38,203 bases of DNA from Steroidobacteraceae bacterium. Its GTDB lineage: Bacteria > Pseudomonadota > Gammaproteobacteria > Steroidobacterales > Steroidobacteraceae. The translations under genes and the position numbers were made by a program. Position 1 is the stretch's first letter. Each line of letters opens with the position of its first letter. Positions 8,200-23,283 of the stretch are shown piece by piece. The notes under the pieces are model-generated. The model searched no databases and was not told the DNA's origin. It saw nothing but the letters and a program-made list of their open reading frames with translations. The stretch lies in the NCBI GenBank assembly GCA_025451275.1, contig JANWKR010000017.1, positions 1 to 38,203 of the forward strand, in the 5' to 3' direction.

Positions 8200-8554
8200 G
8201 GGGGCGACCGGTTTCGACGTGGGTTGCGAACCTTCAGGGGCGTACCGAGGCCGCAGGATCCTCGTAAATACTGCTGCAAATCATAGTTGCCAACGACGAC
8301 AACTACGCTCTAGCTGCCTAAACGCAGCTGACCTCTGACCAGCTCGTGCCTGTGCGACTGAATCAGGGGACGCGTTCACAGGATCGCGCACCGGCGATGC
8401 GAGCAGGCCGGCGCGCTAAGAGTCACTGATCGCTGGCGCAGCGTCTTCCCTGCTCCTCGGGTAGCGCGGCGCGAGAACCAATGAGAGAGCTACGTACGTA
8501 GATCCTGCAGTCTAGGACTTACGGACGGGGGTTCGATTCCCCCCGCCTCCACCA
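8200..8554 (+). ncRNA. ssrA: Transfer-messenger RNA (tmRNA)
   Basis: One-piece tmRNA of 355 bases including encoded CCA. The 5' end GGGGGCG (8200-8206) pairs with CGCCTCC just before ACCA at the 3' end (8551-8554), giving the acceptor stem with a G-U third pair that alanyl-tRNA synthetase recognises. The T arm GGGGGTTCGATTCCCCC is at 8527-8543. The tag frame begins at 8289 and encodes ANDDNYALAA then TAA. It rescues stalled ribosomes with SmpB and marks the unfinished proteins for degradation. A strong hairpin follows 5 bases after CCA. Confidence 0.97.
8289..8321 (+). other. tmRNA tag reading frame (ANDDNYALAA)
   Basis: Resume codon GCC at 8289-8291 and stop TAA at 8319-8321, ten encoded residues preceded by the alanine carried by the tmRNA itself. 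The tag differs from the E. coli one (ANDENYALAA) by Glu to Asp at position 4. The C-terminal LAA seen by ClpXP and Prc is kept. Confidence 0.95.
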
Positions 8555-21317: not shown

Positions 21318-22883
21318 TCATTTTACCGGGCGCACGCTCTCGGGGAGCACCGTGGCACCGAAGCGCTCGCGCAGCCCCTGTACCGCCGGGTCGGCCTCGA
21401 AGCTGCGCCGCGCCGCCTCGAGTTCCGCCTCCGAGGCGCGCCGCGCCAGCGCCGCCGGCGTGTCGCTGCCCGGCGCCACCTGGAACTCGAGCCGCACCGG
21501 CACGCCAAAATGCTTGGCCAGCGCCTGGGCGAGCCGCTCCTCGGTGGCCGCGGTGCGCACCAGCTGGTTGCGCGGGTCGAGCGCCAGGCGCACCACCGCG
21601 CCCTGGCGGCCGATCAGCACGCAGTGGCTGGCCAGCTGGCGGGCGGCGCCCGTCAGCTCGAGCCGTCCCACCAGCTGCGCCCAGGAATCCGCCGCCGGGG
21701 CGGCCGCCGGCGCCGGGTCCGCGCTGGCGCCGGCCGCCGGAGCAGCGGGGGGGCGCGCCGCGGCCGGGGGCGCCGCGCTGCGCGCGCCGCCGGCGTCCGC
21801 CGCCGGGCGGAACGCGAGCATGCGCAGCAGCGTCATCTCGAACCCGCTGCGCGGCTCGGGGGCGAGCGCCAGGTCGCGCCGGCCGATGATCGCGGTCTGG
21901 TAGAAGAGCTGCACGTCCTCGGGGGCGAGCGCACCGGCCAGCCGCTGCAGCACTTCCGGGGCGTACAGCTCGTCGCCCTCATAGTCCTTGACCGCCTGGC
22001 GCAGGCCGACCCGCACCAGCAGCGCCGCCAGCGCATCGAGCACCTGCGCATAGTCGGGGGCGAACTCCTCGAGCGCCGCCGCGGCGCGCAGCAGGGCGCT
22101 GGCATCGCCGGCGGCCAGGAGCTCCGCCAGCTGCACCACCGTATCGCGCGCCACCGTGCCGAGCATGGCACGCGCCTCGGCCTCGCCCGCCTTGCCGTCA
22201 CCGAAGGCGATCAGCTGATCGAGCAGCGACAGCCCGTCGCGCATGCTGCCGTCGGCCGCCTGCGCCACCAGCGCGAGCGCGCCCGGCTCGCTCGCCACGC
22301 CCTCCTCGGCCAGGATGTGGCGCATGTGCGCGGCGATCTCCGCCGCCGGCAGGCGCTTGAGGTTGAACTGCAGGCAGCGCGACAGCACCGTCACCGGCAG
22401 CTTCTGCGGGTCGGTGGTGGCGAGCAGGAATTTGACGTGCGGCGGCGGCTCCTCGAGCGTCTTCAGCAGCGCGTTGAAGGAGTGCGCCGAGAGCATGTGC
22501 ACCTCGTCGATGAGGTACACCTTGAAGCGACCGCGGGCCGGCGCGTACTGCACGTTGTCGAGCAGGTCGCGGGTATCGTCGACCTTGGTGCGCGAAGCCG
22601 CGTCGACCTCGATGAGGTCCGGGAAGCGCCCGGCGTCGATCTCGCGGCAGCTGGCGCAGGTGCCGTCCGGCTCGGCGCTGACGCCCTGTTCACAGTTCAG
22701 GCACTTGGCGAAGATACGCGCGATGGTGGTCTTGCCCACCCCGCGCGTGCCGGTGAACAGGAACGCGTGGTGCACGCGGCCGCTGTTGAGGGCGTTGACC
22801 AGCGCGCGCCGCACGTGCTCCTGGCCGATGAGCTCGGAGAACTTCTTCGGTCGGTACTTGCGCGCCAGCGCGGTATAACTCAT
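21318..22883 (-). CDS. dnaX: DNA polymerase III subunit tau/gamma
   Basis: 521-residue clamp-loader ATPase. Walker A GTRGVGKT is near residues 45-52, the zinc site Cys61, Cys64, Cys76, Cys79, Walker [13 protein letters not shown], and the sensor motif [19 protein letters not shown] Pro/Ala-rich linker ([19 protein letters not shown]) leads to a C-terminal domain. It is about 120 residues shorter than E. coli tau (643), mainly between linker and C-terminus, where the DnaB-binding part sits. No A-AAA-AAG slippery site or run of A or T was found, so a programmed gamma product is not evident. The ATG at 22881-22883 has GAGG 6 bases upstream; the ATG at 23018 would overlap the SRP RNA gene. Confidence 0.96.
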
Positions 22884-22906: not shown

Positions 22907-23019
22907 GGCGGCCCGCACCAGCTTGAGCTCCGGCACCCGACATCGCCGCTGCCGCTGCTGCCTGCCGGCCCTGACGGGATTCACGACTGGTCGTCGCGGA
23001 GAAACCGATGCGGGCCACC
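22907..23019 (-). ncRNA. ffs: 4.5S signal recognition particle RNA
   Basis: 113 bases (E. coli 114). GGUGGCCCGCA at the 5' end (23009-23019) pairs with UGCGGGCCGCC at the 3' end (22907-22917), an 11-base-pair closing stem. The Ffh-binding region keeps the symmetric loop GUCAGG / AGCAGC, and the apical stem is GCC-GGCA-GGC where E. coli has UCC-GGAA-GGA, a compensated pair change. UCUCCGCGACG and GGGUGCCGG with AGCUGG also match E. coli in order. The gene lies 23 bases upstream of dnaX, a known location in gammaproteobacteria. It binds Ffh and FtsY to target membrane proteins. Confidence 0.87.
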
Positions 23020-23191
23020 GTAGGCTTGCTCTGCCACAGCCGGGCGACTCGCTAACTAATCCGGGCCACGGCCCCTTGATCGCGCCGAAACCGCACCGGC
23101 GGCACCCCGCCGCGGCCGTGCGGCGCGGGTCTTGCGTTCGCTGCGGGGATGCTATCACACGACCCTGCGGCGCCCGGCCGGGGTGCAGGGG

Positions 23192-23283
23192 TGGCGGAGA
23201 GGGTGGGATTCGAACCCACGAACACCCGTGAAGATGTTACTGGAATTCCAGTCCAGCGCCTTCGACCGCTCGGCCACCTCTCC
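23192..23283 (-). tRNA. tRNA-Ser(GGA)
   Basis: 92 bases including encoded CCA. Acceptor GGAGAGG (complement of 23277-23283) pairs with CCTCTCC before G-CCA (23192-23202). The anticodon stem CTGGA/TCCAG encloses the loop CTGGAAT with anticodon GGA, reading UCC and UCU. A long variable arm (class II) and the T arm GTGGG-TTCGAAT-CCCAC follow. It is upstream of ffs on the same strand. Confidence 0.97.

Follow-up and report, generated by a model that had tools for sequence, protein, structure and literature searches.

FtsY docks on the apical loop of 4.5S RNA, and this docking speeds the assembly of the SRP with its receptor. In E. coli, the tetraloop of the SRP RNA binds the G domain of FtsY in the early targeting complex (PMC4737761, in extract), and a basic patch of FtsY, comprising K399, R402, K405 and K406, is described as contacting the negatively charged RNA backbone (PMC11404819, in extract). 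A UUCG-type control loop is described as non-binding in the same extract, and in yeast a swap of GAAA to UUCG reduced the association of SRP54 (PMC5115805, in extract), which indicates that not all loops suffice. Among GNRA-like motifs in known structures, 80 % have a purine as the third base, which is thus not universal (PMC12550061, in extract). Loops of GNYA sequence could fold in a GNRA-like manner through a G–A pair between bases 1 and 4, with few structures to draw on, while GNNA sequences can also adopt other turns (PMC5311481, in extract).

The window analysed here is the whole 38 203 nt stretch of DNA from a Steroidobacteraceae bacterium whose assembly is a draft (149 contigs, 81 % complete). 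It carries one gene for small bacterial SRP RNA (RF00169, Bacteria_small_SRP, 4.5S RNA, ffs), which agrees with this family in covering the full model, in its CAGG/AGCA core and apical stem and in the single copy found, and which differs from the model in having GGCA in place of a GGAA apical loop. The features of this gene and its surroundings are as follows.

21318–22883, minus strand: dnaX (DNA polymerase III gamma/tau), the downstream neighbour, with Pfam domains PF13177, PF22608, PF12170 and PF12169.
22913–23010, minus strand: small bacterial SRP (4.5S) RNA, model span, the sole copy found in the assembly.
22956–22973, minus strand: domain IV core CAGG...AGCA, the symmetric loop, from the RF00169 match and the core pattern.
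22960–22969, minus strand: apical hairpin GCC-GGCA-GGC, with a GCC/GGC stem common to the genus genes read.
22963–22966, minus strand: apical tetraloop GGCA, with C at 22964 as the one base private to this gene in the alignment of 36 genus genes.
23149–23159, minus strand: possible extended −10 element TGTGATAGCAT (tentative), which precedes the model start by 138 nt.
23192–23283, minus strand: tRNA-Ser(GGA), the upstream neighbour.

A search with cmscan matched RF00169 at 23010–22913 on the minus strand with 63.5 bits (E 6.8e-12; model positions 1–97 of 97), against a gathering cut-off of 40 bits. The paired ends of the 4.5S RNA run a few bases past the model span on both sides (22907–23019). 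The covariance model therefore bears out a sequence-only reading of this DNA, which had called a 4.5S RNA with SRP pairing here without giving its strand. A better 4.5S gene elsewhere would have spoken against that call, and no second SRP RNA over the cut-off was found in the 81 %-complete assembly. The only other match, on contig C135, scored 15.9 bits (E 2.34) and was dropped as a second SRP RNA because it lies under the RF00169 cut-off. Both protein partners, Ffh (TIGR00959, 544.7 bits) and FtsY (TIGR00064, 341 bits), are encoded in the same genome (G000) and exceed their cut-offs.

Read from 5′ to 3′, the core of the host gene is CAGG-GCC-GGCA-GGC-AGCA. The two sides of the symmetric loop, CAGG at 22973–22970 and AGCA at 22959–22956, are present exactly as the sequence-only reading had it and presumably form the Ffh-binding site. 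Between them, the stem arms GCC (22969–22967) and GGC (22962–22960) are paired. The third base of the tetraloop is C at 22964 in the minus-strand reading, so that GGCA fails both GNRA, in which this base is a purine, and GNAR, in which it is A; the earlier description of the loop as belonging to neither class was correct. By its sequence GGCA is a GNYA loop, with G first, A last and a pyrimidine third, as in the tetraloop GACA (PMC5311481, in extract). The GNYA examples of that source are ribosomal, whereas the host loop belongs to an SRP RNA. A GNRA-like turn is likely because the first-to-last G–A pair remains possible. The gene at 22913–23010 probably encodes a functional SRP RNA whose GNYA loop is able to keep this turn.

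Folding depended on how much of the RNA was included. The 98 nt model span alone folded no better than shuffled sequences (z −0.22), with another fold preferred. With the basal stem included, this alternative was set aside; the best fold with the domain IV pairs exceeded the minimum by 1.0 kcal/mol, with a probability of 0.84 for the apical stem, compared with 0.50 to 0.995 for 35 sibling genes. A long single hairpin with domain IV at its apical end was obtained, and the host fold lies inside the range of its siblings.

Within the genus, 37 genomes had an SRP match, of which 35 (the host and 34 others) were read and two (G038 and G102) were left out. Alignment of 36 SRP genes, comprising the host gene and 35 others from the 34 genomes, showed a GCC/GGC apical stem in every gene. 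The other 35 genes share this stem with the host, but all of them have the loop GGAA and the host alone has GGCA. The A-to-C change at 22964 is the sole private difference of the host gene in this alignment, which indicates that the gene has not undergone general decay. The sequence-only reading had coupled the loop with a change of the apical stem from UCC/GGA to GCC/GGC. This stem change is real and preserves pairing, but it is shared across the genus rather than peculiar to the host, and so did not arise together with the loop change; comparison with relatives, which that reading had proposed, leaves the loop as the unusual element. The CAGG/AGCA core is the same as in the host in 34 of the 35 other genes. 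At the remaining locus, L035 (G054:C10), there is a private core change, with GUGAGG for GUCAGG.

The GGCA core pattern was also searched for over 58 genus genomes (the SRP RNA was read in only part of the 57 others) and matched twice, in the host gene and at G194:C24. The latter was rejected as an SRP RNA, as it belongs to no Rfam family at the gathering score; the SRP RNA of G194 has GGAA. Outside the genus, GGAA was found in all 33 loci read in the rest of the family, out of 138 genomes with a match. For the class, a sample of 369 genomes gave the core pattern with A as the third loop base in 142 genomes and with a different base in two, these being pattern matches for some of the stems and flanks rather than individually checked SRP RNAs or totals. 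The two exceptions are the host genome (C) and G428 (G). On these pattern counts the third loop position is strongly constrained in the class sample, since 142 matches have A and two have another base. The locus in G428 (L253, G428:C38) is an SRP RNA of 51.3 bits whose loop, GGGA, is still GNRA.

The genes dnaX, ybaB and recR adjoin the SRP RNA gene, with whole domain matches in each. On the other side, the 3′ end of the same tRNA-Ser also precedes the SRP RNA in 12 of the 34 sibling genomes for which this flank is available. A scan for sigma-70 promoters was negative. The extended −10 motif has one match in the window against 0.01 expected, for a motif defined post hoc from three genomes. The element, TGTGNTAGCAT, lies upstream of the SRP RNA not only in the window but also at the sibling loci L036 and L055, at distances of 144 and 85 nt from the model start, respectively; three further loci listed for the motif are the same place as the one in the window. 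The element may thus be a weak sign of a promoter.

Several other observations concern the flanks of sibling genes and the rest of the window. At L047, L057 and L035 the SRP RNA gene is preceded by partial copies of the tRNA-Ser 3′ end, which at L047 and L057 come after a whole tRNA-Ser end; such copies might be the trace of past integration at the tRNA. In genomes G119, G166 and G181 (L040, L041, L050 and L055), contigs end 13–38 bases from the SRP RNA match, and G119 and G181 each have two SRP RNA matches, located where contigs end. This could reflect a repeated sequence, an inserted element or an effect of the assembly. The window also contains an ordinary tmRNA gene at 8200–8554 on the plus strand, with the tag ANDDNYALAA.

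The sequence-only reading had further proposed that the loop change may go with altered FtsY residues. Comparison of the proteins, using E. coli numbering for FtsY positions through alignments, does not support this. Of 20 genus genomes searched for FtsY, 17 gave a match over the cut-off, and three loci that proved to be Ffh matches (L102–L104) were excluded from its alignment. The host FtsY keeps K399 and R402. Positions 405 and 406 are Q and R, as in 15 of the 16 sibling proteins, with A and R in the other one. At all eleven contact or neighbouring positions (343, 354, 362, 365, 366, 398, 399, 402, 403, 405 and 406), the host FtsY has the same residues as 15 of the 16 siblings. Private substitutions numbered one in the host FtsY, compared with 0–9 in the 16 siblings, and four in the host Ffh, compared with 0–13 in 17 siblings (excluding L133, which is truncated, and L134, for which no Ffh was found). 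The four in Ffh, numbered on the translated frame, are V165I, K278Q, P297A and P395R, the last of which presumably lies in the M domain, close to the RNA-binding motif.

A scan for the GGCA core in a collection of species-representative genomes, which may omit the host genome, matched ten contigs. Eight of these were rejected as SRP RNA, with no Rfam family at the gathering score. The other two, both titled Gemmatimonadetes, are SRP RNAs over the cut-off, with 63.2 and 54.4 bits. Like the host gene, these loci (L075 and L077) have GGCA between NCC/GGN stems and exceed the RF00169 threshold, but they come from distant organisms and their stems are ACC/GGT and CCC/GGG, as opposed to GCC/GGC in the host. 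Their GGCA loops are presumably separate in origin from that of the host.

Both of these genomes (G217 and G218) belong to one order, here called Gemmatimonadota from the titles of the two records. An RF00169 match was present in 181 of 201 genomes of the order, with 168 over the cut-off. Loops were read at 70 loci (L154–L223), namely the 60 with the highest scores, taken as two successive sets of 30, and 10 picked from lower ranks, so the counts lean towards high scores. Half of the loci (35 of 70) have pentaloops, 29 have GNRA tetraloops and six have other tetraloops. The tetraloops are GAAA (26), UAAC (3), GGAA (2), GGCA (2), GAGA (1) and UAGC (1), and the pentaloops are CCGAA (13), GUGAA (8), CCGCA (7), UCGCA (3), UUGCC (2) and UCGCC (2). 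A GNRA tetraloop is therefore missing at 41 of the 70 loci, all of which are over the RF00169 cut-off, indicating that GNRA is typical of SRP RNA without defining it. Every pentaloop fits N-Y-G-M-M and, by sequence, can be viewed as a tetraloop expanded by one pyrimidine that follows the first base. The exchange of A and C at the third tetraloop position recurs in the pentaloops, and C is present at this position in 16 of the 70 loci, GGCA included. Loop length changed at least four times on a tree of the FtsY proteins. Matches to GGUA in G287 and G243 were dropped, as the SRP RNA of each is on another contig. In other RNAs, the known GNRA-like forms include UMAC loops, as well as pentaloops in which an additional residue follows the first loop base (PMC12550061, in extract). 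No description of Gemmatimonadota SRP loops was found among open-licence papers, and the extract of PMC7203096 makes no mention of SRP RNA.

To set these loops beside the protein, FtsY was sought in 32 Gemmatimonadota genomes selected according to loop type; 30 proteins were aligned, and G331 and G388, for which no locus was obtained, were left out. Across loop types, all 30 proteins have K399 and 29 of them have R402, while 405 and 406 vary. The sole exception is G217, a GGCA genome, in which FtsY (L145) has Q402; no FtsY match was obtained for G218, the other GGCA genome. Of the two GGCA genomes with an FtsY to compare, the host and G217, one thus has a change at position 402. This leaves a little room for co-change, with too few cases for a pattern. 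A co-change of FtsY with the loop was sought across the genus as well as in Gemmatimonadota, and none was found other than R402Q in G217.

It is likely that the window holds an ordinary 4.5S gene with one lineage-specific A-to-C change, whose RNA is bound by Ffh via the core and whose GNRA-like GGCA loop is docked by FtsY. In this scheme the RNA would bind Ffh through the unchanged CAGG/AGCA core, the GGCA (GNYA) loop would still form a GNRA-like turn and the basic face of FtsY (K399 and R402) would dock on it in early SRP–receptor assembly. The RNA is presumably transcribed and the call of C at 22964 correct, and GGCA would fold as a U-turn and be tolerated by FtsY. The loop C is probably a tolerated single-base variant, but possibly a sequencing error. 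If there was an error in sequencing or consensus, the true loop would be GGAA and C at 22964 a wrong base in the draft. The occurrence of GGCA in a single genus genome against 35 GGAA genes from 34 others points that way, as do the search of 58 genus genomes, which matched only the host gene and the non-SRP place in G194, and the fragmented, incomplete assembly. However, the remainder of the SRP RNA gene has no private differences, its protein-coding neighbours dnaX, ybaB and recR give whole domain matches, and the presence of GGCA in two unrelated SRP RNAs indicates that this state is biologically possible. An error is thus considered rather unlikely.

Co-adaptation, in which changes in FtsY or Ffh would compensate for the loop and create a private SRP–receptor interface, is highly improbable. 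The four private Ffh substitutions, with P395R among them, and R402Q in one of the two Gemmatimonadetes GGCA genomes are consistent with it, but the contact residues of the host FtsY are those of 15 of the 16 siblings, the private substitutions of both proteins are within the sibling range, and the loops of Gemmatimonadota vary widely, yet K399 is invariant and R402 nearly so. It is scarcely credible that the gene is a decaying or silent copy whose working counterpart lies in the missing part of the assembly. The completeness of 81 % and the two matches seen in two of the 37 genus genomes with a match would allow for this, whereas 35 of the 37 have a single match, the host gene differs at one base only across the 36-gene alignment, and it sits beside dnaX and tRNA-Ser with a possible promoter element upstream. 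The reading of an ordinary gene with a tolerated loop variant is therefore preferred.

The host offers a modest case, a single base in one draft genome, whereas the series in Gemmatimonadota is both stronger and more interesting. Natural loops that are neither GNRA nor GNAR, in genomes whose FtsY docking residues are kept, offer substrates for establishing what FtsY reads. Opinion is evenly balanced on the broader proposal that the apical loop of bacterial SRP RNA is far less fixed than the GNRA rule implies, with C arising independently at the third position in the host and in Gemmatimonadota, and with one Gemmatimonadota order switching several times between four and five bases (NYGMM pentaloops) and using UAAC and UAGC while the FtsY lysine is kept. 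If this is true, FtsY would read the shape and backbone of the loop and not the GNRA bases, and the GGCA loop of the host would be a small instance of this.
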